From Agrypnia vestita (Eukaryota; Arthropoda; Insecta; Trichoptera; Phryganeidae): a DNA stretch of 64,000 nt. This document shows, piece after piece, positions 15,037-60,645 of this stretch. Each line of letters begins with the position of its first letter. Position 1 is the first letter of the stretch. The notes below the pieces were generated by a model. It was given only the letters and a program-made list of their open reading frames with translations, was not told the origin of the DNA and searched no databases. The DNA lies in assembly GCA_016648135.1 (NCBI GenBank), contig JADDOH010000328.1, positions 248,001-312,000 on the forward strand. The letters are read 5' to 3'. The translations under genes and the position numbers were made by a program.

Positions 15037-15068
15037 TAGATGAAGAAGCCATTGGCTTTGAAACATGT
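15037..15068 (+). ncRNA. Hammerhead-like core, 15.0 kb
   Basis: A degraded box TAGATGA (15037-15043; consensus CTGATGA) is followed by a 5-bp stem II, AAGCC/GGCTT around an ATT loop, then GAAAC at 15060-15064 and ATGTTGA. Stem II and GAAAC match the copy at 28.2 kb exactly, but the first box has two changes. Activity is unlikely from this copy. Confidence 0.35.
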
Positions 15069-15185
15069 TGATTTTTTTCAATAAATAAGTGGTTTAAACA
15101 AAGTTAATTTATATTAATTATATTAATTAAAAAAATTCAATTTTATTATCCACTAAATATATAAATTATTGTATAATTTAAACAT

Positions 15186-17185
15186 TATTATGTATAGACA
15201 ACGCTTATATGACGCGATATTACAATAAAATTCATATGGCGCGTTATAACGAGAAGTTCGTAAAGCACGTTATAAATACACTATTATAGTGTATAGTGTA
15301 TACTAATATAGTGCGTTCATCTGGCGCCTTGCACTTGATATTGCTCTTATATTATTATTGAATCCCTACATACCTACATAATGATAAATGTGAACATAAA
15401 TAAACACGACGAGAAACGACCACCAAGTGACTGAAGTACCATAATGATGAGAAAGGACGCAATAAACAAAATAAAATAATATAATTCGCTCTTCAAAGCA
15501 GAGTAATGGCGAATGTTGTAATCCTTGTTTACCGCGGTGTCATTTTCCCTCGATTTCCCCACTTTTCTTGTCCCCTCCACATCTTCCTGCTAAATTAGCC
15601 AAAGGGAAACCCGACAAAGCGTGCCCCGGTCACCATCCGTTTTATAAAAAATGCTGAAACCGGGCGTTTTGAAAAAAAATATAATTGGATTTAATTTCTT
15701 TTGAATGCTTATTGGTGTATCGAGATACTGCATTCATGTTGTTAAAATAAAATCATCGCTGTTGATAGAAGTAGAAAAATATTTTTTTTTATTAGCCGGT
15801 TTTAGTGATTTTTTAATACAAAAAATAAGCCTTATAAAATAGTTAGTAACAATATGAAGTGAAGTATCAAAGATGATACTTAATAAATCAAATAGTTTAT
15901 ATTTCATCTTAAATTATGTATTTATTTGTTAATCACAATAAAGTTATAGCATTTCATATTTTTAATTGCAAAATAATGTTTTTGTTAGAGTACTTAAAAA
16001 AGAAAGCGTATATAAATTTAAGTTATCTCAGAATTAAAAAAATTAATTAATTTTAGAATTTATTATCTCAGAAATGGCGGACCATACAAGAACCGAAGGT
16101 CGTCATTTCGATAGTGATAGATATCTTATAAAATCTAGCGATTAATTGTAATTTATATTTAAACAACTTCAATTACTTCCAATCTTCTGCGTTTAGTGAC
16201 CACGTCTCTACACCCACCCGACTCTTATCCTTAAGTCGCAAGTTAAGCTTTAGTAATATTACTGAAGAAGAATAATTATAATTATTGCAAATAAGAAATA
16301 GTGAAAATAAAATATTTTTTTTTATAATTTAAAATGGCCTTTCACAAAGTTGCCCACAAAAATTTCGAAAATTTTAATAATGTATATAAATAAATTTCAT
16401 ATATTATATACTATATTTACCACATTACCTAGTTCAAAACATGTGGCACATATTTGTGTATTGAATTCAGTTCATTAGTTTGATTTCGCGTTTGCAGGTG
16501 ATGCATCGATAGATAAAATCAATTCTTTCTGATGTAACTGTATATATGGAGTCGATTTGAAAAAAACCCTGAAAATTGGTCACCCGAGGAATCAGTTTGT
16601 AAGAAGAGGGGAAGGAGAATAAAGTCTCAAGAAAGGGTGGGTCTTGTTAACCGGTACCACATCCTCAAGGGTGCAGCCAAGAATAAAATGTATAAGAATA
16701 AATAAATAATATTTTTATATAAATATGACGATTAATCAAGTAGATATTTAATTTTGTGCTGTTTACAAATTTTCATTATAACTCGCGTGGTACGCGATTA
16801 AGAAGACGTTTTGAAAAAGAACATATGTACAATTATTAATTGTATCCATGCCGGTTAAATTAAAATGCCGGATGCACCGAAGAAGCACTCAATACATTTC
16901 TTTGAAGTTTAAGAAAATGTCACAAATATATTCAAATACTCGTTCATTAATTAGGCCTAATCAAGTTGTAAATATTTATATTTGATACATTTTTTTATAT
17001 TGTATATTCTATTCCAATATATTCTATCTTTATAAAATGTATTTTAATGCGAACCCCTTTTAATAATGTTGGTAATTTTGTACTGTTTCTTGTATTATTA
17101 TATTGTATTGTTGAATTTTATTTGAGTTTTTAAGATTTACTTATTTAATTCATATGTATATATTCTGGTGCTTATAATTTACAAT
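15186..17185. other. Unannotated AT-rich stretch
   Basis: No gene or clear repeat. A GC-richer block lies at about 15590-15670. The remainder is AT-rich with many short A and T runs. Confidence 0.45.
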
Positions 17186-17188
17186 TTA

Positions 17189-17248
17189 TATATATGTATA
17201 TATATATAATATATATATATATATATCTATATATATATATATATATTT
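17189..17248. repeat. (AT)n microsatellite
   Basis: Nearly pure alternating TA with a few interruptions (for example at the CTATATATAT break near 17228). Confidence 0.9.
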
Positions 17249-17520
17249 CAAGGATATTGATGTTAGTAAGCTAGCAATTTTTTAATATCAGCTCTCAGCG
17301 TACAATTGCAAAACCAACCGATACTATACACAACACTCTGGACAAGATTAATAATACTGTAGGGAAAGGCATCCATGAATAAGCACATATTTAAAAAATG
17401 AAATAAAAGATATATCGGGACAACAATTATTAGATATCGTATTATTCACATTTTAATTCACGTTTAAGATTTACGGAATAAAATGTGTGAATCATTTTAC
17501 CTTAAATTTTTTAAAAGATT

Positions 17521-17660
17521 CAACAACCGAATAGCATATATGGGAAGATGTATGTAAGTGGATGAGGCAAGAGTAGTGTGCCATGTGCCATGCAAGAGAG
17601 TGTGGCGTTCTATCCTCTCTGTATAATAATGCGGGGATGCGGCTTAAGGATTAGTTAAAT
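17521..17660 (+). repeat. Family P 3' end, plus-strand relic
   Basis: GAAGATGTATGTAAGTGGATGAGGC, GAGAGTGTGGCGTTCTATCC and TCTCTGTATAATAATGCGGGGATGCGG follow the order of the family P terminus (RRCMNVDEA... VWRS...). It is strongly decayed and has no tail repeat beyond GGATTAGTTA. Confidence 0.55.
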
Positions 17661-18430
17661 ATTTTGGCACGGTGTCGTGGATAATCTGCTGCACAATTAA
17701 TCCGTACCAAAGAATCTAATGTATGTGCATTTTCCTAATTTTGTATATTTGCTTAAATATTTTTTTCTTGTCACCATGGTATGATTAAGGAACATCTCTG
17801 AAGAACTGCAACAAAGCAATTGCGCTATGTTAAGATTTATAAATTTTTCAGACTCGTTGTTATAAGTAGGTAGTCATTCGCAAATGATACAACTATTATT
17901 CTATTTTCAAAAAGGCTATCATCTCTATAATGAATCCCGGCATTTTTTCATTAAAAATTAATATATTATATAAGAATTAATTCTTCCAGCTACACCCCTG
18001 ACGTTCTTAAGAAGTAACGGAAGCACGAAGTCGGAACAGACCTTTCCTCAAGGCGGCGTGATTTTAATAAGCTTTAACACCCACTTAACGGGAAGGACGG
18101 AGCAGGGGAGGACTGATTAACGGAATTATTGTCGGCACTTAACGGTCTCGGCCACGGCTTTAGCGCTACGCGGATTTTTGTATAACATGTGACTTATTTT
18201 GTATACATTCCGTGGACTTAACTTAAATGTTAACATCAAATAATCGTTAGATGAGTAAATAAAATGTGAAAACTTTAAACATTAAATTTATCATTAATAA
18301 AATACTGAATTGTGAGTGTTGTTTTTATTACTACGTATTGATGTTGCGACGATGGGTTTAATTATGTGTAAATATATTTGTAATAAATAGCTATTGTAAA
18401 AAAATATGAGTATGTAATTTAATTTTTTAT
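17661..18430. other. Unannotated, with GC-rich island at about 18000-18180
   Basis: The island contains AACGGGAAGGACGG, CAGGGGAGGACTG and CACTTAACGGTCTCGG. No frame is open over it. It resembles the other isolated GC-rich blocks of this window and may be a conserved non-coding element. Nothing else is seen. Confidence 0.35.
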
Positions 18431-18439
18431 TGGGTTCAT

Positions 18440-18610
18440 GGGACTCGAATGTTCATAACCCAGTCCCCATATAGCGCCATCCATCTTCTGATATCGCCAC
18501 TGTGATGCAGTCTGCTGGGCATTTCCTTACCTCTTGCAGATCGATGTCTTAATTGATCTTGTTCTTCCCTTTGATCTCAATCCTGTTGGCTAGAATATGA
18601 CGGCTTTGTG
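18440..18610 (-). repeat. Unassigned retroelement-like fragment, pair with 39218-39430
   Basis: Both segments share in order the phrases CCAGTC, CCTTACCTCTTGCAG or CCCTATCTCTTGCAG, TGTT(T)TAAT, CTTCCCTTTGATCTCAATCC or CCCTTGGTCTCGATCC, GTTGG, and GGCTTTGTGCATG or GGCTCTGTGCATG. They are copies of one element, probably the 3' coding end of a non-LTR retrotransposon on the minus strand. Confidence 0.45.
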
Positions 18611-18689
18611 CATGTGCATTCGTTCCAGAAAAAACTTGGTTGCCCCAATTTTTCGAAAATTATATTTTAATGCAGAAACGTGCATCGTA

Positions 18690-19200
18690 AAATAACAGAC
18701 ACAACGAAGTCCAATTTTATATATTCCTACATAACTTTTTCGGTCAATTTTGAATAGAAAATATTATTTACACTTTCGCCGACGAAATGCCGACGGTTAC
18801 GCAATATGCGACATCAAAGTTTGGATTTTTTTCAAATTCTTTCTGTAAAATGTTTGGCTATAATTCCAGGACGTAACCTATATAGAATATTAAAAATTCA
18901 TTTTTTATACAACTAAAATAAAATGACAAAAACCCAAAAAAAAATCAATTTACTGCAAGTTTTCGGTAATTTTATTTGAATTGTTTCAGTGAATGAATTT
19001 TAATTTTCCGATTTAAATTACTTTCATAATCTAGCGTTTTACAATAGATAACCTATAAATATTTAAAAATGCGAAAATTTTGATGTTGCTTAACTCCGTA
19101 ACTGCCGAGATTTCATCCAATATGTAAATAATATTTTCTATTCAAAATTGAATGAAGAAGATTCCCTCGCAGTTTTTGCTACTAGCTACGAGACATCCTG
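18690..19200. mobile_element. Possible foldback element with decayed arms
   Basis: A 29-bp inverted repeat (CAATTTTGAATAGAAAATATTATTTACA at about 18743 and its reverse complement at about 19124) encloses further weakly paired blocks: GACATCAAAGTTT at 18810 with AATTTTGATGTTGC at 19075. Arms have diverged by indels and the ends are not defined. Confidence 0.45.
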
Positions 19201-19493
19201 TTTAACTTATTGTATTGTCCTTTACTTAATTTAACAATGTATGGTCAGCGTGACGCAACAAGTTTATAGGTAACTTTACCTATTTTTTGACTGGTAATCG
19301 CTGGTGTATTTTAAAATAAATCTTACAGTTTAACAATAATTATTGTTACAATAGAATACCAATTACAATATCACAACAAAAATTCAGCTCATCACAAATA
19401 GATACCTAAGAATTCTTCAGTATGCCTAAAATATTATTTATATAATTAACCAGAAATTACTTTGTATGTATATACCATTATTTTGTTAAATTA

Positions 19494-19528
19494 TCAACGT
19501 GTTTCGAGGGTAATTGCCCCTTCACCAG
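19494..19528 (-). ncRNA. Hammerhead-like core, 19.5 kb
   Basis: On the minus strand: CTGGTGA (one change from CTGATGA), stem II GGGG/CCCTC around CAATTA, then GAAAC (19505-19501) and ACGTTGA. The A-to-G change in the conserved box would be expected to impair catalysis in a true hammerhead. Confidence 0.4.
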
Positions 19529-19765
19529 GATACAACGAATACTAAAAATTAAAAATCTATGTATAACTATGTGGCTATGCATAATCTATGGCCCGAATAC
19601 AGAGTCAATACTTAATAATGTAAAGGATTAAAGGTTTTTTAAATTTTTTATTTATTTACGCGATTAAAAAGTAATTTGCAGTACAAATTTACACTTTTAA
19701 GGCGTACTTTAACCTTTAAATCATTTAAATATTGACTCTGTATTCGGACCTCTGTATTATGGTCC

Positions 19766-19800
19766 CTGATAAAGGGACCATTGGCCCCGAAACATGGTGA
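19766..19800 (+). ncRNA. Hammerhead-like core, 19.8 kb
   Basis: CTGATAA (19766-19772, one change), stem II GGG.CC/GG.CCC around ATT, and GAAAC at 19789-19793, then ATGGTGA. It is the right partner of the core at 19494-19528. Confidence 0.4.
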
Positions 19801-19870
19801 TATTGGAACAAAATTAATTGTTAATATAAAGCATATTCATGTAAATTATGTTAATAATGTAACCACAAAG

Positions 19871-20985
19871 AAGTTAAATGTTTATTTTTCTTTTATTGTT
19901 TTCTTTGAAGCCATAAAGTAGACTTACTGGTTATAATTTTTTAATTTAATTTCAATGTATACTTCATTCGGGAACAACTGTCTATTTCGAAAAAATTTCA
20001 AATTATAATAATTTCGTTATCTCTCCGTAAGTCTGTAACTTGTAAATAAATACTATAAAAAATTTAATAATGCTGTCACTTTTAACGGGTTACAGCTTGT
20101 AAATAAATTAATGTAAGAATGGAAAATCATTTCGATTTTTATTTAAAAAATATTTTAAGGGTAATGCTACGGTGAATATAACACTTTATATTAATGGGAG
20201 GACTTGAATTTTGTTTTAAAGAAACATGATTATTTATTCCGTTCGCGAGCCGCGGCGTGCGGCGGAGCCAGCGCGGACAGCAGCCACCTCAGGGAAAATT
20301 ACATCCAATGTCTGTGCCCCGCAGAGGGGCCCGCGCGCCCCCGAGCCGCCCGCCGAGGAAATGCAAAGTATTGGGAATTCACGGCACAGCTCGGCCTGAG
20401 TGGTTTGTCGGAGGAATATTTCAATGCTCGTCATAAATATTAATGGAGGAAATAAAATAAATCAACCGGGTCCGTAAGGTGGCTCCTGGCGAGCAGGAAT
20501 TTGCGTCTCGGCGATTTTCAAGCGAACTTGATGCGTGGCGTTTTGAAAATATACGCTGCACGTATATCATCTTGTAGCATAGATGTAACGTATCTGACTG
20601 ATGAATGAGAGTGATAGACGGCATGGAAGAAAGAGAGAGCAAATGTTACAAAGCAAGAGGCGCCATTTTGCGGACTCTCGTTACATAGTCACCGCGACAT
20701 GAACATTAATCCTATTGTACTATAACCGAACTATTGTCACTTGTCAATAAAACAACGATTTTATGTAATTTTGCAGCAAAGTACTATATAAGGATATGTT
20801 CTGAAAACTATAATATCTGTGTTCACGATAAAAAAATAGAAATAAAAATAACTTGGCACAGTATATGCGAATACGAATAATACCAACAACAGAAAACAAT
20901 GCAATATTTTCTTGAAATAAGTAAACGATGAACCTGATAGTTTCTTTTATTGCATTATAAGAAGGGATGTTTTTGGATTAAAGAC
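19871..20985. other. Unannotated, with GC-rich island at about 20230-20400
   Basis: The island is very GC-rich (GAGCCGCGGCGTGCGG, GGGGCCCGCGCGCCCC) in a region that is otherwise AT-rich. It has a short open frame on each strand, so coding is not supported. It is a candidate conserved regulatory element or CpG-rich block. The rest holds nothing recognised. Confidence 0.35.
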
Positions 20986-20989
20986 GGGC

Positions 20990-21080
20990 GTAAGTTCCGC
21001 GGTCACCCAATTAATACTTTTATACAGGCTTTCCCACATAAATAGATTAGTCTCTGTGTCTCTGACATTTATAATAATTT
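20990..21080. repeat. MITE family A, right-end fragment
   Basis: CACCCAATTAATACTTTTATACAGG, CCACATAAATAGATTAG, TCTCTGTGTCTCTGACATTTATAATAATT matches the right end of 6743-7129 block by block. Confidence 0.6.
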
Positions 21081-21139
21081 ATCTTTATTAAATAATGTTT
21101 TCTTCAAAAAGAGCAAAACGATTTTATGGTGAAATTATT

Positions 21140-21225
21140 AATATAATTAATAAAAATGTTCTTTGTTTTCACCACTTATATATATTAAAAATATCAACAT
21201 GTTTCAGGGCTAACGGGAATAGTAA
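21140..21225 (-). repeat. Tail of a hammerhead-type repeat, minus strand
   Basis: The minus strand reads CCCTGAAACATGTTGATATT followed by ATATAAGTGGTGAAAACAAAG, the same layout as the repeats at 28.2 and 50.8 kb (GAAACATGTTGA, then AATAA.GTGGT, then CAAAG). The CTGATGA box is not preserved. Confidence 0.45.
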
Positions 21226-21885
21226 TAGTGTAGACACCAAAAATATAAAAAAAATAACATACGGGAAATGAATAATAATTTTGTACTAACATGAAATTTT
21301 TTTAATGATTAATGAACTATTTTTAAAAAGGACCTGGTTATTTATAATTTCAATTTATTATTGACACTTTTTCTTATTTCCAAGATTTCTAAGTTATCAA
21401 ACTGTAATCCTGTATAATTTGTTTGCAAAAATTTTAAACCCTTATAATACCAAAGGAATGGTCCATAACTAGAAGCTGATTCGCAAATTCAGAATAATTA
21501 TTGCAACTTAAGTGTTTCTTAACTCTAACATCAAAATTTCTACACATTTTTCAAAAATAAAATAATTACAATCATTACAAATGAATTTATAAACACCCGA
21601 TTTTTTTAAAGAATCATCCTTCTCCTTATTTTTTTATACGTTTTTTAAAATTTATTATTATTATAGAAAACCGGTTGAATAGATTTGGAATTTTTTTAAC
21701 TATTGAATTTAAATTTGATTTTTTATAAATACGATTTTTCTCCAATGCTTTTCAATTGTAAAAAAAGATTTTATAAACTTCTTATACCTACTTTTTATTT
21801 AACATGTTATCTATTAATTTTGTATCAAAACCTTATTTTGTATTAAAAATTATTTGTAATTTGAAAGACTATTATTTACCTTCAA

Positions 21886-21955
21886 TCCTCTCTGCCTACC
21901 CCCGCGGGGAAACGGCCTGATGGTTAGATAGTTAGTTAGTTAGTTAGAAATGTGA
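21886..21955 (+). repeat. Family P 3' tail with (TTAG)n
   Basis: TCCTCTCTGCCTACCCCCG, CGGGGAAACGGCCTGATGG and then GTTAGTTAGTTAGTTAG. It gives the clearest view of the tail repeat of this family on the plus strand. Confidence 0.7.
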
Positions 21956-22049
21956 ATAATCTTTGACCAAAGGTAGATTTCATTCATGAAACTATTATAA
22001 TATTTTTTGTATTTGTTAATTGTCTATAGGTACTTCGATTTTTAATTGT

Positions 22050-22170
22050 AAGTATATATTATGATGTATCCTGATGATTATTGGCCCTGAAATATGTTGA
22101 TAATTCAATAAATTATTGTTTTATATAAAGCGTTTTATTGTTAATTACATATTTATTTACTTATACTGAA
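22050..22170 (+). repeat. Hammerhead-type repeat, 22.1 kb
   Basis: An exact CTGATGA (22071-22077) is followed after a collapsed stem II by GAAAT (22089-22093) and ATGTTGATAATTC, then AATAAATTATTG. The box is perfect but stem II has been shortened and GAAAC has become GAAAT, so it is a relic. Confidence 0.4.
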
Positions 22171-23606: not shown

Positions 23607-23634
23607 CTAAATTATTGCACAATATTGTAATGTG

Positions 23635-26894: not shown

Positions 26895-27565
26895 CCGATT
26901 CTGAAAATAACAATGTCTGGATCTTTAAGATCTTTATCCCAACACTTAATAGACGATAATAAAAATTAAAAATGTCCAGAGCGGATTTTGTAATTCTACG
27001 GCTCAAATATACTGTATTAAAAGATGATACAAGAAAGATTGTTTCTTACAATCGTATTAATTTCTTCATCCACAGCGTCCAGATGAAATATCATGGCTAA
27101 ACTTGTAATGACCGCGTTCGGCGTTACCGCGTATTCAAATCTTCCCACCTTGACATTTTTTGACAGATATGTCTGGATCTTTAAGATCTTTATCCCAACA
27201 CTTAATAGACGATAATAAAAATTAAAAATAAACGAGACATAGCTTTACGTCGGTGTTTGTTTCTATGAGGGAGGGAGAAAGATGTAAATTGTTATCTGTC
27301 AAATGTCAAGATGGGAAGATTTGAATACGCGGTAACGCCGAACGTGGTCATGACAAGTTTAGCCATGATATTTCATCTGGACGCCGTGCATGAAGAAATT
27401 AATACGATTGTAAGAAACAATCTTTCTTATATCATCTTTTAATACAGTGTATTTGAGCCGTAGAATTACAAAATCCGCTCTGGACATTTTTAATTTTTAT
27501 TATCGTCTATTAAGTGTTGGGATAAAGATCTTAAAGATCCAGACATTGTTATTTTCAGAATACGG
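26895..27565. mobile_element. Long-arm foldback MITE, family D, copy 1
   Basis: Arms of about 264 bp (26895-27158 and 27300-27565) are nearly perfect inverted repeats. The terminus is CCGTATTCTGAAAATAACAA on the right (reverse strand) and CCCGATTCTGAAAATAACAA on the left. The 140-bp loop contains a third, direct copy of the subterminal block (27170-27229, TGTCTGGATCTTTAAGATC and on). Nothing is encoded. A relative with shorter conserved arms is at 50249-51106. The shared GTATTCTGAA terminus links families D and E. Confidence 0.8.
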
Positions 27566-28075
27566 ATGATTGAATGACAGGAATGTGGAGTGTAAGGGAT
27601 TTACAAAACCAAAAACGGGAAGCAGAAATTGGATCCTGTGTTTCCTTGTCTACACAAACAATGATGCAATATCACGTTTCAACACCCAACAGTTGTACAG
27701 TATTGGCATACAAATAATTTCAAATCAACAATGGAACATCGATATTTTGTAACACATACATGGATTCTAGCGTACGACCTCCACGATGTACGGGTGTTCT
27801 TAAAAAAACCCATTTATTTGATGTCGAAGCGATATTGATGTCAAACGGATTTCTATCATCACGCAGACCAGTCATTAGAATCGAGTGTTTTATAATGATT
27901 AATATTATGCGAAATAAGTACTAATATTATTTTAAAAGTTGGTAGAAATCAGTTTGTTTCACACACATCCACTAATTTCTTCATCCAGAGTTCAAATTAC
28001 ATTAAAGCCAATATTTCATAAGGATGATAGAAATTTCTTCTTCAAATGTAGCAAATTTATTTTGTGGTAACATAA
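27566..28075. other. Unannotated spacer
   Basis: No recognised feature; a 60-codon open frame near 27570 starts inside the MITE end and is chance. Confidence 0.4.
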
Positions 28076-28077
28076 TT

Positions 28078-28264
28078 ATAATTAATATAAATTAACTTTG
28101 TTTAAACCACTTATTTATTGAAAAAAATCAACATGTTGATATGTCTATTATATTAAATATTGATATATCTATCATATTCCTGATAAAGAAGCCATTGGCT
28201 TTGAAACATGTTGATTTTTTTCAATAAATAAGTGGTTTAAACAAAGTTAATTTATATTAATTAT
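28078..28264. repeat. Perfect 60-bp inverted repeat with hammerhead-like core
   Basis: Arms 28078-28137 and 28205-28264 are exact reverse complements. The core (28180-28207) lies in the loop directly before the right arm. The left arm begins just after the position of GAA of the GAAAC box, so only the right side has the full core. The same 60 bases occur once more at 15062-15121. Confidence 0.85.
28180..28212 (+). ncRNA. Hammerhead-like core, 28.2 kb
   Basis: CTGATAA (28180-28186; one change from CTGATGA), stem II AAGCC (28189-28193) with GGCTT (28197-28201) around ATT, GAAAC (28203-28207), then ATGTTGA. A one-pair stem III (C with G across AT) followed by TT would fit the minimal stem III seen in some retroelement hammerheads. 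Stem I is not evident. Confidence 0.45.
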
Positions 28265-28886
28265 GATAGAAATTGCTTATTTATTAATATTTTAATAATT
28301 ATTTCGTCACAATATTGATATTTTACGGATGTATTGATGTTTTTCTATTGTCTATATGTTGAAATGTTCGCCAACATGATCGCTAATGTTCGATAACCGG
28401 ACAAGCAATAGAATAAGATTGGGAAGAATGTTTCCGAAGTTTAGTTTTCCTCAGTTTGAAAGTTATAAGTTCTCTTGAACTATCCTTTTGATAGTGGCTT
28501 ATTTTTTTTCCAAACATATGAATTATGTAATTAGCATCTTCAAATAACCATTTTATCAACATTAATTTTCATTGTAACCATCGCACTTGCAGTGTCACTT
28601 TTTTATTTACACGTTTTTATTTAGCTTCACTTGTCTGTCTGTCAGGGATAGGGATAAATATTATAATCAATATTTGATCCACTTCCTGACCAATTGTTTG
28701 ATAATTGGTAGTGAGACGTATTCCGGAAGACAATACAATAATCATTCATTATTTTACAAAATCATATTATTAATGTTATTGTTTTATTTGTGATAATTTA
28801 CATATTTCGTTTGTATGGGACTTGGTTAGAGAGAGCTCAATCCCGTTTTGATGTAACTACTGTCTCGGGTCTTTAATCTACATAAG

Positions 28887-28942: not shown

Positions 28943-29034
28943 TAATTTAAAATCTTCTTTTTGTCTTGCCTGCAACAAGAAAAGAGACGGTGTCCTGATG
29001 TTTTATGTGGTGGCTGATGTTTTTTCTTCAGCAT

Positions 29035-29611
29035 GTTATTGAATAAGGATTCTCAGTGCGCGAATAAGTCATTGAATCAGGATTTTCAGTGCGCTAATAA
29101 GTCATTGAATAAGAATTTTCAGTGCGCGAATAAATCATTGAATAAGGATTCTCAGTTCGCGAATAAGTCATTGAATAAGGATTCTCAGTGCGTGAATAAG
29201 TCATTGAATAAGGATTCTCAGTGCGTGAATAAGTCATTGAATAAGGATTCTCAGTTCGCGAATAAGTCATTGAATAAGGATTCTCAGTGCGTGAATAAGT
29301 CATTGAATAAGGATTCTCAGTTCGCGAATAAGTCATTGAATAAGGATTCTCAGTGCGTGAATAAGTCATTGAATAAGGATTCTCAGTTCGCGAATAAGTC
29401 ATTGAATAAGGATTCTCAGTGCGTGAATAAGTCATTGAATAAGGATTCTCAGTTCGCGAATAAGTCATTGAATAAGGATTCTCAGTGCGTGAATAAGTCA
29501 TTGAATAAGGATTCTCAGTGCGTGAATAAGTCATTGAATAAGGATTCTCAGTTCGCGAATAAGTCATTGAATAAGGATTCTCAGTGCGTGAATAAGTTAT
29601 TGTATAAGGAG
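29035..29611 (+). repeat. 33-bp minisatellite, about 17 units
   Basis: The unit reads LNKDSQ[CF][VA]NKS when translated forward (11 codons). Units alternate between a CVNK type (GTGCGTG) and a FANK type (TTCGCG), giving a 66-bp higher-order period over most of the array; the first three units are the most divergent. Because 33 is a multiple of three, several frames stay open on both strands: forward 29033-29656 as about 200 codons and reverse 29094-29567 as repeats of MTYSRTENPYS. There is no sign of a promoter, signal or splice structure, so I call a minisatellite and not a gene. Confidence 0.9.
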
Positions 29612-30805: not shown

Positions 30806-30964
30806 CCTTTGTTTACCCCCACAAATTTATTTTCAACTTAATTCTTAACCCGTGCAACGCCAAGTACGAACAACTAGTAACATATAAGAATGTTCTTAGG
30901 TTTTACGGCCACTCAGAATCTTCAAGTTTGTGTTTAATGGGGTATTATGCCGTGTTGTTACGAC

Positions 30965-31009
30965 CTTTCGGGCCAACGTTTCGGATCCCATTGCAGGGTC
31001 CATCATCAG
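30965..31009 (-). ncRNA. Hammerhead-like core in left Penelope arm
   Basis: Minus strand: CTGATGA (31009-31003), stem II GGACCC / GGG(A)TCC around TGCAAT, GAAAC (30982-30978), then a GTTGGCCCGAAAGGTC segment that can form a short stem III and a GTA at the expected cleavage position. All three core blocks are canonical. Bases flanking the core do not pair in an obvious stem I. Confidence 0.55.
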
Positions 31010-31021
31010 GGCTGATGTTAC

Positions 31022-31675
31022 AACGCGTCATAAGTACGAAGTCTGTTCGCCCTGAAAAACATACAGAACCTGAGTGCAAAGGCATCGCCTTTCTGCCTTT
31101 TGTCCAAAGCGTTACAGACAGAATTGCCAGAGCTCTCAAGAAAAGAGACATTAAGACAGTTTTTGGTACCAACTTCAAAATTAAGGATATGTTGAGATCA
31201 GCGAAGGACCGAGATCGCTTAGAAACAGACGGTGTTGTATAGACTCGATTGTCAACACTGTGATAAAGTATACGTGGGTCAAACGGCGCGTACCATTTCC
31301 AAAAGGGTCAACGAGAACAAACGGGCATGCAAACTCGGTCATCCAGAAAAATCAGCACTGGCTGAGCATTTTCTGGATACCGGCCATCATTTTGCATTCG
31401 AACCGAAAATCCTTGGAAAGCCTAAGAGTCACCATGCGCGTCCTATCAAGGAAGCACTAGAAATCTACAAGCATCCGATAAACATTACTATTAATGTTAT
31501 TAATGTAATCTCTAGAGATGATGGTCTCAAATTAAAAACACCTTGGTATCCGGCGCTTCAAAGTCATTCTCGACGCAGACTCCGCAGAGATAGTGATCAG
31601 ACAACAGATGAATCATACACACAACACAATACAACACATCATGACTTCGGCACGGTATTGCAAGCCGATACTTAA
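31022..31675 (+). pseudogene. Penelope-like reverse transcriptase/GIY-YIG C-terminus, frameshifted
   Basis: The first part reads PFVQSVTDRIARALKKRDIK, TVFGTNFKIKDMLR and DRLETDGVV, the linker before the nuclease. One base is missing near 31238, after which the frame continues as LYRLDCQHCDKVYVGQTART, SKRVNENKRACKLGH and SALAEHFLDTGHHF to a stop at 31673-31675. The VVY...YVGQT pair is the GIY-YIG signature of Penelope-like endonucleases, which nick DNA to prime reverse transcription. The reverse transcriptase domain itself is absent. With the frameshift and truncation the copy cannot function. Confidence 0.8.
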
Positions 31676-31709
31676 CCACAACACCAACATTCAAGACAAC
31701 ACATCAGCC

Positions 31710-31761
31710 CTGATGATGGACCCTGCAATGGGATCCGAAACGTGGGCCCGAAAGGTCGTAA
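31710..31761 (+). ncRNA. Hammerhead-like core in right Penelope arm
   Basis: CTGATGA (31710-31716), stem II 31718-31723 with 31730-31736 (one bulged A), GAAAC (31737-31741), then GTGGGCCCGAAAGGTC and GTA. The same core as in the left arm with one change in the stem III region. The CTGATGA and GAAA boxes are exact. Confidence 0.6.
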
Positions 31762-31854
31762 CAACACGGCATAATACCCCAGTAAACACAAACTTGAAGA
31801 TTCTGAGTGGCCGTGAAAACCTAAGAACATATAATATGTGATTACTAGCTACAA

Positions 31855-50195: not shown

Positions 50196-50763
50196 CATTG
50201 TCCTGCACTGGATGTGAACATGTTGAAGTTGATGATGTTAAATAATGTGTTATTCTGAAAATAGAAATATTGAAATGTCAGATCTTTATCCCAACACCAT
50301 ATATATATATATACATAGACGAAAATTAAAAAAAAATAAACGAGACGTAGGTATACGTTAGTATTCGGTATTCGTCGTACTTAAATTAGAAGATTTGTAT
50401 ATTTTCACGTATCTCTCTCAAAAACCTTTCGATATCTCGGGTCTGGTCTGACAGCTGCCCTCCGTCGCAAACGTAACCTCACAATTCTCATGTTTCGACT
50501 AAATTACATGAAATAAATATTAATTCTACATTAAAAGCTTATAAAAAAAGTTTATTTCATATGCACTTATTAATTTCTTCTCCCATAGCGTCCTGATGTA
50601 AAATTACGGTGAAATTGTCAGTGTCACGTTGGACCATAGAGAAATATTAACTGTTCGAAGAATATTTTTTCTTCTTCTGTAAGGCTTGAACTTTGTGGTG
50701 ACATTATTATTAAAATAAAACACAAATCACTTTGTTTTCACCACTTTATTAGATTAAAAAATC

Positions 50764-50796
50764 TACATGTTTCGAGAACAATATTCTCTTTTTCAG
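50764..50796 (-). ncRNA. Hammerhead-like core, 50.8 kb, left arm
   Basis: Minus strand: CTGAAAA (50796-50790), stem II GAGAATATTGTTCTC with one mismatch, GAAAC (50773-50769), ATGTAGA. Partner of the right-arm core, with one more change in the first box. Confidence 0.35.
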
Positions 50797-50841
50797 GATT
50801 ATTGTGTACTCACATTAGTATGTATTTAGTACACAATAATC

Positions 50842-50874
50842 CTGAAGAAGAGAACATTGTTCTCGAAACATGTA
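50842..50874 (+). ncRNA. Hammerhead-like core, 50.85 kb, right arm
   Basis: CTGAAGA (50842-50848, one change), a perfect 6-bp stem II GAGAAC/GTTCTC around ATT (50850-50864), GAAAC (50865-50869), then ATGTAGA. The T-to-A change in the first box is at a conserved core position, so catalysis is doubtful. Confidence 0.4.
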
Positions 50875-51106
50875 GATTTTTTAATCTAATAAAGTGGTGA
50901 AAACAAAGTGATTTGTGTTTTATTTTAACAGAAATATTGTTGGACTCTATTTATATTTGACGTTTGACGGATAATTGTCATCTTCTTCTTTTTCTCTCTG
51001 AGCACACCATCAACGTATACCTACGTCTCGTTATTTTTATTTTTTATTTTCGTCTATTAAGTGTTGGGATAATCTGACATCCCGATATTGCTATTTTCAG
51101 AATAGC

Positions 51107-52080
51107 ACAGAATGTCTACCATGCATAGACTAGTTTTTAGAAAAGTTTCTGGGAGAATTTTCCTGTAAGGTGGAACTGTAAATCTTGTTAAATACGCCTT
51201 CGCTAGCCTACGATCAATCATATTTTAAAGTTTTATGTTTCTTTTCAGAAAATAATATGTGGAGCCCAGATTTTTTATTGTTTGCTGGACATTTTTACCT
51301 TTTCATATTTTATTTTGTACTTGCTGCACACAGAAGAATAAATAAATCTTTTTCAATTTGGGCTGTCCGAAGTTCTTAAGCCGGCTCTGCGTTTAGGTGA
51401 TACTTGGAAATGCGCATATATATATCCTAAGGATTGACGAAAATAGTTCACTTGGCAGGTGTAATTGCCTTTCTGGGGTATAAATTTACGGTGTAGCATT
51501 TAGTAACTGCTTATAATTTGCAGTTACTAAATGCTGCACCGTAAATCTATTACAAATATTCTTCTTGCACAAATATAACTCTTTATGAGCCTTACATTTC
51601 TCGATGTCCCCATATGCGACATTTTTAAAACAAACGACATACACACCTATCATTACACAGGCAGGATAGATTGAGTCTAATTTTGGACATGGTTAGTCAA
51701 AACTTGACATCTTTTAAGAGATAACTGCAGTCAGTTTGAGATGGGCCTGTTAATTACCCTTTTTTTAGTTACTTAAAAAATTCCAATTTTTTATATTTAT
51801 ATTCGTATCTATTATCTATAATTTATGATTATATGCATTAATAATCAGTAAGTCTCGTAAATTCTGCAAAAAAATTATTGAGCGTAATTTTATATTATAA
51901 AGTCAACGAGTATCTGTCTACCGAGTGAATTATATTTTTAATTATGATACACCTTCATTCGAACAGATCATACTTTAAATGTATGGATATTCCGAAATTA
52001 TATATTTATACTATGATCTATGGCCTCCCCATTTCAAGGACGAGCCATCGTTCATTCTACTTATAGGAGTAAATGCATTA
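51107..52080. repeat. Unannotated stretch with a 27-bp-arm palindrome
   Basis: The palindrome is at 51484-51510 and 51520-51546 (ATTTACGGTG.AGCATTTAGT and on), one mismatch, 9-base loop. Otherwise AT-rich with no gene recognised. Confidence 0.6.
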
Positions 52081-52084
52081 ATTA

Positions 52085-52180
52085 ACTATTAAATAAAATC
52101 GAAATTACTTTGTTTACACCAATTTATTAGATACAATATGTGTAGCATCTTCAACGCATCATTAGGAATGGGGAATAAAT
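52085..52180 (-). repeat. Tail of a hammerhead-type repeat, decayed
   Basis: Minus strand: CTAATGATGCGTTGAAGATG, TATCTAATAAATTGGTGTAA, ACAAAGTAATTTCG. The layout of the family is kept but the GAAAC box is lost. Confidence 0.4.
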
Positions 52181-53950: not shown

Positions 53951-54575
53951 TTTTTTTCCCAGTACTTTTATTTGAAAAATTTACATTTAAAAAAGGGAAA
54001 TACTCCAGACCTCTAGACCGGCGGTAGCCAAACTTAAAGAACTCACGGACCACTTATATGACTTTTTAGTGTTAAATATTTTAGAAAAAAGTAATCAAAG
54101 AAAACATAAAATGCACCTGGTTACTAAAATAAAACTATTTATTGCAACCAAATTATAAGAGGTTTTTTTTATTTTTGATTGAGATGATTCCATGCATCTT
54201 GCATTGTTCATCGGTGCAAGTCACTTATTTTTCTGGGTTGGTTTGCTGTGGATTAAAAATGCAGATAATGTCCACATTTCTCTGCGGACCAGCGAAATTT
54301 TCTCGCGGACCACCACTTTGGCGAACACTGCTCTAGGAGATAAGTCTAAAATTTTACAAAAATGCAAATGGCTCACATCGCATAATGGAAACGCATTTTC
54401 CCGATAAAAGAATTTTCCGGGTTCGCATTCCGGTTCCAAAATTTATAATTGATTAATCTTATTTATTTTAAATATCATAGAAGTGTGATCTAAAGTTGCG
54501 ACTTCATAATAAAATTATATTTAAGCTATTTATAATGTTGGGCAATCCTTAACATTATTTAACAGAAAATACATC
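53951..54575. other. Unannotated, possible SINE relic at about 54390-54530
   Basis: GGCTCACATCGCATAATGG and CCGGGTTCGCATTCCGG have A-box/B-box-like spacing, followed by AATTGATTAATCTT and GTTGCGACTTCATAATAA that recall SINE family F. Weak evidence. Confidence 0.3.
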
Positions 54576-54580
54576 TCTTA

Positions 54581-54742
54581 ATTTAAGAAAGGCAATCGAA
54601 TTAGTGTGTAGGCAAGCCGTACTTACGAGGTAAATTGTTTCGTTGGGTTGGTGTTAACACCCGTAAACACCAACATAACGAAGCAATGTACCTATGTCGT
54701 ACGCACGGCTTGCACATACTAATTCGATTGTATTTCTTAAAT
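54581..54742. mobile_element. Foldback MITE, family G, copy 1
   Basis: An almost continuous hairpin: ATTTAAGAAA..CAATCGAATT at both ends, then GCAAGCCGT, TACGA, ATTG.TTCGTT and TTGGTGTT toward the centre at about 54660. The copy at 55352-55458 shares the left half and the terminal bases. Confidence 0.75.
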
Positions 54743-55257
54743 GGAAAGAGATCTACTTAGTATGCAGTTAGGACAGTAGGGAGAGGGATAAAAAAAACAT
54801 ATTTTTTATGAACTTTTTATTTTATCATAATTTATATTTTAATATCAATCGGCTCTTTAAAATATCTATAACTTTACAACGAAATAATTATCACTGTACA
54901 TATTACACGAATCAATTAAAAATAGTACTTAAATATTTAGATGTTCATTTAACTAGTTCTTAATTATTTAAAGACCTTTTTCTATTCACAAATAAAATAC
55001 ATTTAATATATCTTTAGCTAGTACTATATTTATAATTCATATTTACATATCATTTTATTTTCATCGCGCGATTTTTAGACGGTTACTTTGTGACATCTGA
55101 AATGTATTGATAATTTTTTTTCATTCAATGGAATAATTAAATGTTTATGTAATTGATTAAACGTAACTGTTTTCTGTAGACTATTCCAGATCAGAACTAG
55201 GTGTTCAGTATGAAAATGAAATTCAAAAAGGTATTGCTTCTACCCGTGATACAACGA

Positions 55258-55298
55258 AGGAATTGCATTAATAATTTGTAATTATTAATGCAATTCGA
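55258..55298. repeat. 17-bp-arm palindrome
   Basis: GAATTGCATTAATAATT (55260-55276), loop TGT, exact reverse complement (55280-55296). Confidence 0.9.
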
Positions 55299-55351
55299 GG
55301 TAGGAACATTAATAATTTGGTCAATTTAATAAAAAAATGTATAGATCTTTA

Positions 55352-55458
55352 CATTTAAAAATGACAATCGAATTAATATGTGAAAGCCATGCGTACGACG
55401 CACATTGTTTCATTGTGTTGGTGTTTACCACACAACGAATTTTTGTCTTTCTTAAATG
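55352..55458. mobile_element. Foldback MITE, family G, internally deleted copy
   Basis: ATTTAAAAATGACAATCGAA, GCGTACGACGCACATTG, TTGTGTTGGTGTTTACC, then a jump to ACACAACGAATTTTTGTC and TTTCTTAAAT. Most of the right arm is missing. Confidence 0.6.
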
Positions 55459-55531
55459 GAAACACCTATAACATAATACAGATTAAAGAGGTGGCACAGA
55501 AAAGTTTTTCAATTGATTTCGAATGTCTAAG

Positions 55532-55675
55532 GCCCGGTTGTTTCAAGTTGGATTAATGTAAGCGTTCAAATAAAGCATAGATTTTTACGAAAACGGATCG
55601 TCTGATTGGTGGAGAACGTAAAAATCTATGCTTTAAAAGGACGCTTACTTTAATCCAACTTGAAACAACCGACCC
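55532..55675. mobile_element. PIF/Harbinger-like MITE
   Basis: Ends GGCCCGGTTGTTTCAAGTTG and, reversed, GGGTCGGTTGTTTCAAGTTG; arms of about 58 bp to CATAGATTTTTACG. Flanked on both sides by TAA (55529-55531 and 55676-55678). A 3-bp TAA target duplication with GG(G/C)C-type termini fits PIF/Harbinger MITEs. It is non-coding. Confidence 0.75.
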
Positions 55676-55679
55676 TAAG

Positions 55680-58635
55680 CGAATATTTAATAATTAATCA
55701 AGATAAATTATATCTTTCTAATTTAGAAAGTTGTATATTTATTACTTGTGTACCTCATTTACATTATTTGATACAATTAAGTTATCTCTGTCTATAATTT
55801 ATCTTAATTAATGATTACCTCTCGGTGGACAAAACCCAGTAATTATGTTCTCAGAATATATGAAATAAATATTGTAAATATTTAAAATAAAGGAAGATTT
55901 CTTACGAGTCTGCCATCACCGCCGACAAGGAAAATTCGCTCTAGTGAATTGTGCCACGTGAGTCGCGGCAATAGAATTGTCAACATGCCCGCCGTCAAGT
56001 CAAACAAGCGACTGTCGCTCAAAAAGAGTTGTTCGTATGAGTGTTTATATGTTTCTTCCTGCCTAAGCAATTCAGTCCAAAATATTCACGTAGCAATGTC
56101 CCAATATAAATAGTTATGGAAATAAGCGACGTCAAAGATTAACATACATAATAACATACGACGTCATACAGAAAATAAGTCAAACATATTAGAGAAAAAA
56201 TGCAAATTTTGAAGTAGCATATCTCGATAACTATTGATGTTAGGACATTGTTGTTTAAAAATTTTGGACTCCATGTTAGGAGTCTGCCTGTTAAGTATTG
56301 TGGACTAGCTCTGGTATAACCGTTGACACGTAGAGAGCAATCGTGATACCGAAAAGTCGTTTGGGTCAGTTAATTGATTAGTTAGGTTGAAAAAAACGTA
56401 CTTTCATATTGTGTATTTAAATATATATTTTTTAAATTGTACCTACGGATTATGAAAAGGGTAAAATATATTTATAAGCCTCTGTAAACAGTCCGGATTG
56501 GTCCGGATCGGCACACAACGAATGAAGCCAATTTGGATGAGTCCCTTTGTCATGTACAAAAGTGTACATTTAAAATGAAACCTCCAGCCGTAATCGCGGC
56601 TGAACTGAATTGTGATTGATAAAAAGCGCGCCGTCCCTTTCACACGTCAGCTTCGATGATGTATGAATGTGCGGAACACATTCCCAACTTTGTTCAGCTT
56701 TGCGTAACGCGAGTTAAGTGGGGATTGAATGGCAGACCCTGATTGGTCGATACGCCTACGGTGGCGTCATAAAACTCGACACGAATGCTAAAAAGTTTCA
56801 TTCGAAATTAAGCTATTTTAATGATGGTGTTAGTTGCTACGCAGAAAAGGTAAACTGATCGGTTGCATAGCTAGGTGTGCGCTTCTCTCTGGCTATCCGG
56901 TGCAGCCTTACCATGCGCGTGTCATGGTCCGCACGGTAACGCCACGTTATAAACATGTAACTTGCCACTTCACAATTTTTTTTCATACTGGCTGGGGTAA
57001 TAGCCGGTGAAATGTGATCCGAAACGTTGGTTTTTATAAAAACTGACCCAAATAGTGGGATAATAGACGATTATTAAAAATATGCTCGGCTTTTTGAGAT
57101 CGCAAATGTTGAAAAAAAACTAATGTGTTAGGTGTTAACATAAGTAATGTCCATTTTTTGTTAAATTTTTAAAATGCGCGCTAAAAATAAAAAAAATTGG
57201 TAAAGCTTATAATATCCATTCGAAAGGAAATTTTCTGATTTTTCTTTTGCAATTTATTTAATTATAAGCCTTTAAATGGAATGTCAAGTAGGTACCCCAC
57301 ACAAAAAGGGACACTTTCAACACCTCCGTCTGTTTGCGTTCAATCCAGGGAACAAATGTTTTTTTATTGCAGAGGTATCAAAAAACTTGTAGAAAGTTGT
57401 AAATAATAAAGGAGAAAAATGCATTATTGACTAATTTGTTTTATTTTATTTTGTCGTGTCCTCTGGTCCCCTTCATATGGAAAAAACGGACACATCTTAG
57501 GATAACACCCAGTGTAATGAAAATTACGAAAATGGAATGCAGTCGAAAATATTTAATATGTCAAAATAAATAAACGAAAATAATATCCCGCCTTCAAAAT
57601 TGATTTGATTTAAAGTATCGGAAAAAGTAAGCTGGATTTTTTTTAATGCTGTAAGGGTAAATTTACATATTGCGGGTACAACTGGCACGTAAATTCAATG
57701 CGTAGTATATATATATATATATGTACATATTTTGAGAAATAAAATGAAATAAAATATTTTTCTGATGCAGACTTAGTAATATATAAATGGTACGCTAAAA
57801 ATTGAGTGGAATATTACCAGATTAATATTTAATTTCGATTTTTTCAGAAAATTCAAGATAGGTTAGGTATACAATTAATTAATGATAATTTTAGGGACAC
57901 AACTAAAACGTGATCTCTAATTGTTTGCTGTAAAAATGCAAAAAAGTGTTATCAGTAACTTTTAACTTTTAACAACAATCAAAAGAGGGGTTAAAAACTT
58001 ATCCCAATATGTAAATGGGTACTAGGAGATGAATTTGTTCATTACTTCAGTTTTGTTACTTTTCAGCAAAACATTTCTCCCAAAAAGGTTAAAAATAAAA
58101 TAATAAATTAGGTATACATGTTATCATAAGATATGAATTTAAAATAAAAATCCCAGACAATTGTGTCAGTACGAGTACATTGTATTAAATATTTGCATCA
58201 CCGTTCGCAATGAAATTTTAACGCGTAGAATATCGATATCGCGCGGGTTGGCGGTGAATGTAATATTTTAGCGTTGGTAATATTTGACGTCTGCCCGATT
58301 TATCTCCGATGTTCCAGCTCGGAACTCGTTGTTTATGCAATTCGCGAATGCATCGTTATGTCGGCTTAAATATGTATAAAAATCTCAATAAATAATAATT
58401 CATACTCGTAAACTATTTACACTTATCAAATAAATCGTGGAATTATCGGCTTCCCGGCTGGCGGCGGAAGTTTCGTCCGGGTCGGTATTTACACTAAATA
58501 TGCATCCACGTCAATTTATATCACTACTTTATAACATTAGCGTAGAATTTTTATTGATTCCGATAAATTATTAACATTATTACAGCCATTAACACACATT
58601 TTAGTTTAAATATTATGTACAAATTTATATAAGTT
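55680..58635. other. Unannotated stretch downstream of the Runt-like gene
   Basis: A moderately GC-rich block at about 56640-57000 (GCGTAACGCGAGTTAAGTGG, TACGGTGGCGTCATAAAA) and another at 58210-58330 may be conserved non-coding DNA. A (TA)n run lies at 57708-57722. At 57030 GATCCGAAACGTTGG recalls the GAAAC box of the hammerhead-type repeats, without the first box. No gene is supported. Confidence 0.35.
58550..58555 (-). terminator. Candidate polyadenylation signal of the Runt-like gene
   Basis: AATAAA on the minus strand, about 340 bases after the stop codon at 58898; it is the first exact one downstream. Inference from position only. Confidence 0.4.
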
Positions 58636-58637
58636 AT

Positions 58638-58775
58638 ATTTAAATACTAAATATTCGCCGTACACTTATTTCGAGTCTTTGTAAATACTGAATATGCATC
58701 GCGCGCACATTTATACAAGTCATTGTAAATACTGAATACGTATCGTGTATACATTTATGTAAGTCATTGTACAAT
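58638..58775. repeat. 44-bp tandem repeat in the presumed 3' UTR
   Basis: Two good units (58680-58723, 58724-58767: TGTAAATACTGAATA.G.ATC, then CACATTTAT..AAGTCAT-type ends) with a decayed unit on each side. Confidence 0.7.
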
Positions 58776-58897
58776 AAATTCTGAACACGAATCACGATCA
58801 CTTCGCAACATTTTGTTGACATGTTTTCAGTGTTTTTTAGAAATTAAATGAGTTCCTATGTAAAGTCTGTTATGTTAAAAGTACGCCAACACCACGA

Positions 58898-59559
58898 TTA
58901 ATACGGCCGCCATACTGACTTATGTGACGACACCGCGGCAGAGCTCAGTTTCGTGGTGGTCGGACTCGCCGAGCCGACCCTCGCTCGGACGACCGGGGCT
59001 TTCAGCTCGTTTCTCCCCACCTTGGGCCTGTCCTGGACCGTGGAGTCCGGGTGCTGGATCTCCCCCTCGACCTGTCTTCTCTTCAGCTCCCTCAGTTCTA
59101 GGCTCGCGGGTCTGGCGGGATGGAAGGCGGACTTCACCACTTCGATGGTTTCTTCTTCGGAGTCTTCGCCGTTCGAATGGAGTTCGTCGGTCGAGTTGAT
59201 TTCGGAGCAGTTGGTTTTGATTTCCTCCTTTTTCGAGATCGGCGAGGGGCTGACGCTCCGCCCGCTACTGGTGGGGGATAATCTCACGCTGAGGGCGTCG
59301 CCGGACGAAGCGTCGCTTTGAAAGCTTCTGCCCAGCGACGCGAAGTCGTAAGGGTTGAGGCCGTTCTTCAGCGCAAGGTCGGGGCGGAGGGCGTCTATGG
59401 TGAGGTCCGTGGGGTGCGGAGCGAAGGGTAGCAGGCCTGCAGGGGGGAGGAAAGCTCCAGGCGGGGGTAGGAGGGAGGCCGGGTTGATCCCCCCCGCCAG
59501 GGAGAAGAGATCTGGGCCGCTAACCGCGGGAGGTCTACCGCTCGGTGCGCCCGGAGAAC
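58898..59559 (-). CDS. Terminal exon of a Runt/RUNX-like transcription factor
   Basis: The exon starts after an acceptor with a long T tract (TTTTTTTTCATAG, AG at 59561-59560) and is open for 219 codons to a stop at 58898-58900. GC content is far above the surrounding DNA. The protein end is SSHKSVWRPY. A C-terminal VWRPY is the Groucho/TLE corepressor-binding tail that is diagnostic of Runt-domain proteins (WRPW is the Hairy version). Upstream the exon is low-complexity and Pro/Ser/Leu-rich (INPASLLPPPGAFLPP, RLSPTSSGRSVSPSP), an acidic patch (NGEDSEEETIEV) and a basic stretch (LELRELKRRQVEGE), as expected for a poorly conserved transactivation/repression region. The DNA-binding Runt domain must lie in exons outside the window to the right. 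The first two bases of the exon complete a split codon. Not certain: the family call depends on five residues. Confidence 0.65.
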
Positions 59560-60060
59560 CTATGAAAAAAAAAAGAGTTTAAGATGCAATCTACTTAGCT
59601 CTATACATCTAGAAAAAAAACCAACAAAAGATATAACAATTAAAACCACGTATTAATTCAGAAAACAACCGACAGAACGGTTAACAGGATTAGACAGATA
59701 GTAATTCTAATGTATTGTTAAAAATATACAATAAAATATATACAATATTTAATATTTCGCCAATTCTCAAGAAAAAAATTAAGAACAGTGGATTAATGAC
59801 AACGCTAAAAAAGAAAAAATGCAATGAAAAATAATTTAACAGAAATGTAGCTCGTATTGCCAAGAACGAAAGAAGCATTTTACAGAACAGGTTTTTCAGT
59901 ACCGAGAGTAATAAGAAGCGAAAATATATAATAACCGATCTCCTTTCCTTTTTAGTTAAACTTAACTTAACCTATTTTATGAAACTTAAAAATTAACTTA
60001 ACTTTATGCTCAAATTATAGGTATGTAAAATAATTATACACTTCAAGCGATATTAGTTAA
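59560..60060 (-). other. Intron start upstream of the Runt-like exon
   Basis: Presumed intron of the minus-strand gene; its branch and pyrimidine tract lie at 59561-59580. It is AT-rich with no recognised feature up to the foldback at 60066. Confidence 0.4.
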
Positions 60061-60065
60061 ATTAA

Positions 60066-60645
60066 ATATTGATTGTATTATTTGAATGTATCTACTTATA
60101 TTTTATTAATTACACCTACATGTTTCGGAAAAACCTTTGTAATTTTGATTAATATTTTATATTCATATTTTATAATTTTAATTCATATTTTGTTGTTGAT
60201 ATTTTGTTTTTTTATTCTTTTTAATTTTATATATATAAAATATATATCATTTTTTTATAAAAATATATAAAATAAAAAATAAGTAAAAAAATAATAAAAA
60301 AATGTATATAGAATATTAATATTATATTGTAATTTTAATTCATATTTTGATGATACATCTATAAAACACCCTAACGATAGAAAGGTTTTTCCGAAACATG
60401 TAGGTGTTGGCTTGTTGGTCTTGTGGTTAGGACTGTCGCCTCGTGATCCAAAGGTCGCGGGTTCGAATCTCACTCCAGACAAGCAAGTTAGTATTATTTT
60501 CATAGCACAAGCGTTTAGCTTAATTTGAAAATAGTAAGAATATTGATGTGACACGAATTCCGTGTTCGCATCTCTATTTTTTTAAAAAACAAAAAAAATG
60601 AATAAAATATAAGTAGATACACACAAATAATATAATCAATATTAT
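60066..60645. mobile_element. Foldback with hammerhead-like arms, right arm split by a SINE
   Basis: The left arm (60066-60137) pairs with two separated blocks on the right: 60384-60408 (AAAGGTTTTTCCGAAACATG, TAGGTG) and 60597-60645 (AATAAAATATAAGTAGATAC and on). The gap between the two blocks is exactly the SINE at 60409-60595. The cores are weak: GAAAC (60393-60397; left 60125-60121) is exact and a short stem GG/CC precedes it, but the first box reads CTAACGATA-like and no longer fits. Confidence 0.65.
60409..60595 (+). repeat. tRNA-derived SINE inside a foldback arm
   Basis: Head with A-box TTGTGGTTAGGACTG and B-box GGGTTCGAATCTCACTCC, typical RNA polymerase III promoter spacing. The body shares AAGTTAGTA, GCGTTTAGCTTAATTTG, AAATAGTAAGAATATTGATG and CACGAATTCCGTGTTCG with the half copies at 12990-13195. 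A-rich 3' tail at 60577-60596. The head would not fold as a tRNA since its ends do not pair. Confidence 0.75.

Follow-up and report, generated by a model that had tools for sequence, protein, structure and literature searches.

Minimal hammerhead motifs in an Agrypnia vestita contig as probable ends of several Penelope-like element lineages

Minimal type I hammerhead ribozymes of Penelope-like elements (PLEs) were reportedly treated by Cervera and de la Pena in 2014 and by Lunse, Weinberg and Breaker in 2017. That such hammerheads occur in thousands of copies in animal genomes has already been published, according to the available parts of PMC7761336, PMC6155905 and PMC7229834, and the first of these, in the same partial text, proposes that their cleavage is dimeric. 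The subject here is a 64,000-nucleotide stretch of the genome of the trichopteran insect Agrypnia vestita (contig JADDOH010000328.1, positions 248,001 to 312,000; the whole stretch is called "the window", and coordinates count from its first letter), in which an earlier note, made from the letters alone, had pointed to a network of hammerhead-like cores, spread from 15 to 60 kb within inverted repeats. Judged by their sequences, these motifs are very probably the ends (pseudo-long terminal repeat, or pseudo-LTR, plus tail) of several endonuclease-bearing PLE lineages, with a minimal type I hammerhead near each 3' end. They are new members of a known element type and not a new kind.

Three further systems provide the frame. 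In rotifer Penelope, as the accessible part of PMC3846280 describes it, pseudo-LTRs stand head-to-head in inverted orientation, direct duplications are 8-10 bp long, and one inverted pseudo-LTR carries a tail of about 31 bp; self-priming on an antisense template was suggested there. The purified PLE protein of Anolis (Poseidon PLE PAc) cuts and extends both target strands and begins reverse transcribing at internal positions that coincide with tail ends; the hammerhead of that element showed no cleavage without the protein and is dispensable for insertion in vitro (PMC11167929). Animal retrozymes, finally, are direct tandem repeats of 150-450 bp (PMC7229834, seen in part).

Compared by description with the accessible parts of PMC7761336 and PMC6155905, the Agrypnia motifs share with the minimal PLE hammerheads a type I layout, a weak or missing helix III, dimeric cleavage as the proposed mode of action, thousands of dispersed copies in an animal genome and a tie to PLE pseudo-LTRs. 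They share with rotifer Penelope, to the extent that PMC3846280 is available, the inverted pseudo-LTRs, the target duplications, the one-sided tail and a GIY-YIG endonuclease, and differ in that most sampled copies lie without nearby coding sequence and that the duplications, where found, are 10-15 bp; hammerheads are present here, while the available part of that paper mentions none. Like PAc, they combine a protein with GIY-YIG and reverse transcriptase parts and a hammerhead close to the 3' end of the element; in both, the tail would be explained by insertion ends at two start sites inside the element, and neither shows a sign of insertion ends at the ribozyme cut (PMC11167929). The difference is that activity was measured in Anolis, whereas the elements discussed here are known from sequence alone.

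What makes these motifs hammerheads? The genome searched (1.32 Gb) contains 46,918 matches to the pattern CTGATGA-N8-30-GAAAC (23,091 forward and 23,827 reverse) against 1,627 matches to the reversed pattern that served as control, a 29-fold genome-wide excess. (A note on scope: the sample consists of 100 listed sites among these matches, each with about 700 nt of flank, which yield 93 loci; ratios given per 100 sites or per 93 loci refer to those listed matches.) The hammerhead core, CUGANGA with GAAA, is present throughout, being set by the search pattern. Starting from the last A of GAAA, 78 of the 100 sites have a self-complementary word, that is to say a stem III without a loop (ACGT at 45 sites, ACATGT at 19, ACTATAGT at 6, ACCGGT at 5, ACTAGT at 2 and ACGCGT at 1); of 250 other GAAAC occurrences in these loci, 46 have such a word. 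A hammerhead does not cleave after G at position 17, and in the 78 palindromic sites that position is C (39), T (29) or A (10), and never G. The ATGTTGA or ATGTAGA box that the earlier note had singled out reads as the 3' half of the palindromic stem III (ACATGT), position 17 and the start of stem I.

Stem II helices of at least 4 contiguous pairs, flush with GAAAC, begin 1 nt past CTGATGA in 21 of 75 distinct spacers (over 200 re-dealings of the halves the average is 4.4 and the highest count 10) and at offsets 0, 2, 3 and 4 in 0, 1, 2 and 3 of them, a peak that implies one extra nucleotide between core and stem II. Compensatory change, which had been noticed in the window, holds up in 15 hand-picked intact representatives: 93.3% of cells in the five inner pairs are standard (57.7% when shuffled), 30 cells are altered on both sides (9.6 shuffled) and the covariation score is 0.968 (0.243 shuffled), values matched by none of 500 shuffles, and sliding the pairing by one column lowers it to 56.0% or 33.3%. 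Other measures are less pronounced: the further pair types number 14 against 10.3, a value reached in 6 of 500 shuffles; the pairs with a change on both sides number 4, showing no excess over shuffles (3.7; 340 of 500); and under a cruder, strict clustering the signal is weaker, with 7 of 29 where shuffles average 2.2 and the best of them also reaches 7. Stem I had been described as not visible; it can be seen nonetheless: it is 4 bp long at 50842 and 3 bp long at both 31009 and 31710, measures 2-8 bp in the 15 intact relatives, and among 18 cluster representatives is at least 3 bp long in 12 (500 shuffles average 5.3 and never exceed 10). A long distal stem I helix that appears in one sampled locus (L032) is the inverted left arm paired with the tail and not a ribozyme helix.

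By these features the motifs are predicted hammerhead-type ribozyme folds. What was found for stem III is the loopless palindrome and not a helix closed inside one molecule, and the motif is consequently filed as a minimal PLE-type hammerhead rather than as the canonical type. In the 15 representatives the scaffold of stems I and II comes to between -12.1 and +1.4 kcal/mol, and a two-copy duplex of the stem III word to between -1.7 and -8.3 kcal/mol. Two RNA copies would pair through this word and so complete the active sites; with stem III lacking a loop, cleavage would need a dimer, either intermolecular or in tandem, and perhaps also the PLE protein.

It could be objected that chance, or palindromes at the DNA level such as those of foldback DNA transposons, would produce the same picture with no ribozyme function at all. 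The decay of the window copies fits this, as do the insertion ends, which bear no trace of cleavage, and some sampled matches (L009, L039 and L045, for example) that resemble a minisatellite rather than a hammerhead. The objection is scarcely credible in the face of the 29-fold excess, the covariation of stem II, the missing G at position 17 and the PLE reading frames described below. In the window, a descriptor scan compared with 30 first-order Markov simulations of the same stretch picks out 12 sites with a score of at least 6 (simulated mean 1.6) and 5 with at least 10 (simulated mean 0.03; top simulated score 10), several of the 12 (46686, 29785, 15759, 57268 and 17880 among them) being unlike true copies.

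The connection to PLEs begins at 31 kb, where the earlier note had placed one hammerhead pair inside a Penelope-like element, a placement that is supported. The left inverted pseudo-LTR arm (30875-31018, minus strand) holds an intact-core hammerhead at 30978-31009 (motif match 30909-31009); the right arm (31701-31844, plus strand) holds a second at 31710-31741, with G at position 17 (motif match 31710-31810); and between them lies a fragment of a Penelope-type GIY-YIG endonuclease (31223-31675, plus strand), under the Pfam cut-off with an E value of 0.047 and with one relative in a large protein collection. Used as a query, this fragment matches 8 of the 93 sampled loci. Two of them (L095, L040) belong to the GGACCC family, which is that of the window element itself; the other six (L014, L051, L033, L067, L089, L050) lie outside it, L014 belonging to the family of the copies at 15.04 and 28.18 kb and L051 to that of the pair at 50.8 kb. 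The endonuclease frame lies upstream of the hammerhead in the first five of these six, and in L050 it stands between two head-to-head hammerheads 1130 nt apart; some of the frames (L033, L067) are interrupted by stops. GIY-YIG exceeds the Pfam cut-off in all three loci tested (L014, L051, L050). For the L050 protein, 99 relatives come up at E values no higher than 0.001; RVT_1 occurs in many of them and GIY-YIG in some. The protein has no sequence relative in PDB and no NCBIfam match. The combination that characterizes PLEs, a GIY-YIG endonuclease with a reverse transcriptase frame, is found, the reverse transcriptase through relatives of the L050 protein. For the 19/22 kb and 60 kb families no coding relative was seen among the 93 loci, and their assignment to PLEs accordingly rests on the shared layout.

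If coding sequence is missing from the 700 nt around most sampled copies (the endonuclease query finds its 8 of 93 loci), why not regard the inverted hammerhead pair as mobile in its own right? The earlier note had suggested an undescribed, non-autonomous retrozyme-like family, which would spread through small circular RNAs; hammerheads are present as that would require, and type I hammerheads in short non-coding repeats are indeed a likeness to animal retrozymes, as the available part of PMC7229834 portrays them. The suggestion is nevertheless very unlikely: relatives of two of the window's families without open reading frames (ORFs), L014 and L051, have GIY-YIG frames upstream, and ORF-less pairs, the one at 28.18 kb included, bear Penelope insertion signatures. 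The gap between arms, moreover, ranges from 2 to 1130 nt over 48 head-to-head loci, so that the copies have no junction in common and the inverted pair did not spread as a single unit. The retrozyme arrangement, direct tandem repeats of 150-450 bp, was not what was found: a direct copy lies within the flanks at 10 of the 100 sites, at least 3 of them minisatellite-like. Unlike the retrozymes in the accessible text of PMC7229834, the copies here are inverted or single in their flanks, and some families lie next to PLE frames. On the sequences, the inverted pairs without ORFs are best read as PLE fragments.

An inverted copy lies upstream within the flanks, with the ribozymes facing outward, at 46 of the 100 sites; the opposite layout, an inverted copy downstream, occurs at 1. 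The 48 head-to-head loci come from a second search with a relaxed core, and five of them are slices of the window. In 14 of the 48 an exact direct duplication of 10-15 bp bounds the outer ends, as against 2 of 192 control pairings of flanks from different loci, and all 14 of these duplication loci have a one-sided tail: an extra 21-45 nt on one side, with the other side ending no more than 13 nt from where the arm stops. (One of the 14, L074, is a low-complexity word at the limit of the search.) The window supplies an example at 28 kb. There a 12-bp direct target duplication (28024-28035 and 28263-28274) encloses an element at 28036-28262, whose left arm (28036-28137, minus strand; motif match 28072-28137) has the longer tail and ends inside the hammerhead, and whose right arm (28180-28262, plus strand; motif match 28180-28270) has the shorter end, the core CTGATAA, a stem II of GAAGCC-ATT-GGCTTT, the stem III word ACATGT and T at position 17. 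In the GGACCC family, alignment ends cluster about 43-62 and about 77-97 nt past GAAAC, two clusters that fit an optional tail. Inverted pseudo-LTRs, target duplication and an optional one-sided tail are all found, and the head-to-head layout, direct duplications and one-sided tails are described PLE hallmarks. Within this subset the short ORF-less copies are head-to-head insertions in which both outer ends are element 3' ends.

How might such insertions arise? The PLE enzyme would make staggered cuts in the two strands of the target; each DNA end would then serve as primer for reverse transcription of element RNA, beginning at either of two start sites; and the resulting complementary DNAs (cDNAs) would be joined head-to-head. 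A model in which both cut ends act as primers, at two start sites, is favoured because of the rotifer and Anolis PLE data taken together with the one-sided tails seen here. The alternative within the same element type is that a single cDNA folds back and primes itself, as the accessible part of PMC3846280 suggests for rotifer Penelope, and the head-to-head layout with arms of the same family at each locus is equally expected from it. Fold-back predicts matching outer ends and no direct duplications, however, whereas every one of the 14 duplication loci has its tail on one side, and with the purified PLE protein, extension takes place on both strands of the target (PMC11167929); fold-back is a rather unlikely route. 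Returning to priming from both cut ends, a wider and quite tentative generalization, about which we are more doubtful than confident, would be that PLE insertion normally proceeds in this way at two RNA start sites, so that a single event gives head-to-head arms with an obligatory one-sided tail; that the short inverted pairs, of which thousands are expected in the genome, are its fossil record; and that the lineage-specific yet self-complementary stem III reflects selection that keeps a dimeric ribozyme, though cleavage does not set the insertion ends. So many insertions in one genome could serve to test PLE integration (priming from both ends versus self-priming) and to ask whether the dimeric hammerhead is under selection.

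Several results weigh against assigning the motifs to PLE ends with hammerheads. The Rfam hammerhead models, which the earlier note had proposed as a check, give no match at E values up to 10 in the window, and none in 20 intact-core loci out of 80. The stem III palindrome is missing at 22 of the 100 sites (decayed copies or chance matches), and the best single-copy fold beats stems I and II alone in 15 of 15 representatives. Evidence from tails and ORFs is limited to a minority of the families. Duplications of at least 10 bp are lacking in 34 of the 48 head-to-head loci, and for the window pairs at 19, 31, 50 and 60 kb no duplication of at least 9 bp was found. Of the inner ends of 43 left arms, just 1 is 2 nt or less from the predicted ribozyme cut. 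Nor does the cut emerge as an insertion end from clustering: the densest 25-nt cluster (14 of the 43, from 13 nt before the cut) is equalled in 404 of 5000 uniform simulations. With no enrichment of ends at the cut, nothing indicates that cleavage has a part in shaping the DNA copies.

The PLE assignment has the merit of explaining a dense set of odd inverted repeats as fragments of one kind of element, and it brings out a ribozyme layout that went unreported by the Rfam hammerhead models in these sequences. As to precedent in related insects, no paper on Penelope, hammerheads and Lepidoptera together was found in the open-licence library searched, and a search for the hammerhead ribozyme with butterflies or moths returned matches of which none, among those listed, mentions the ribozyme.

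The whole window was scanned for motif copies, and each place named by the earlier note, at 15-60 kb, has a motif copy or a tail. The further claim, that nine sites share one layout, stands only in part: motif copies are present, but 30978 and 31710 deviate, in that their loop is TGCAAT, ACGT replaces ACATGT, and the GTGGT...CAAAG tail is missing. Both belong to the GGACCC family (L095 and window 30909-31810), which lacks the GTGGT tail and has a bulged stem II, unlike the other families; the hammerhead layout therefore spans clearly different 3' ends. These same two sites, 30978-31009 (minus) and 31710-31741 (plus), are the only ones of the nine to keep an exact CTGATGA...GAAAC, and the window copies are mostly decayed.

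At 15037-15127 (plus; motif match 15039-15127) a decayed hammerhead with the core TAGATGA and a 3' tail, of the GAAGCC-ATT-GGCTTT family, has no partner that could be seen. A decayed arm with its tail at 19436-19528 (minus) is the outward-facing partner of another at 19766-19858 (plus), which has CTGATAA and an altered stem III and belongs to the GGGACC-ATT-GGCCCC family. The decayed 3' part of a hammerhead, with tail, at 21089-21217 (minus) faces outward relative to the decayed hammerhead and tail at 22071-22152 (plus; motif match 22076-22152), where CTGATGA is retained and GAAAT stands in place of GAAAC. The head-to-head pair at 50.8 kb, of the GAGAAC-ATT-GTTCTC family, consists of a left arm at 50703-50810 (minus; core CTGAAAA, motif match 50703-50796) and a right arm at 50828-50935 (plus; core CTGAAGA, motif match 50842-50932), and a related tail relic lies at 52083-52157 (minus). 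At 60063-60138 (minus) the 3' part of a hammerhead of the GGAAA family, with its tail, faces outward relative to a relic at 60371-60407 (plus) that has CTAACGA, a 6-bp stem I and a broken tail that resumes at 60596-60643. Beyond the places named earlier, the clearest relics are 9839-9908 (minus), nearest to the GAGAGG/ACTATAGT family, and a tail at 62303-62348 (minus) of the GGACCC family; the weakest rows of the copy search (E value about 0.004) are AT-rich and probably due to chance.

The insert that splits the tail of the 60371 copy, at 60408-60595, is of the transfer RNA (tRNA)-like, short interspersed element type with a GGTTCGAATC box; ARAGORN called no tRNA in the window. The best rows of the Rfam scans, such as MIR837, fall short of their gathering scores and are located on palindromes. 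This holds for the microRNA rows (MIR837, mir-5856) at 50755-50883 and 51476-51554, which reflect palindromes in the DNA; the second of these places is a separate inverted repeat. Another, at 26898-27561, has two arms of 261 nt, 97% complementary, with 142 nt between them. A minisatellite with a unit of roughly 33-36 bp (AATAAGGATTCTCAGTGCGTGAATAAGTCATTG-like) was spotted by eye at 29000-29600.

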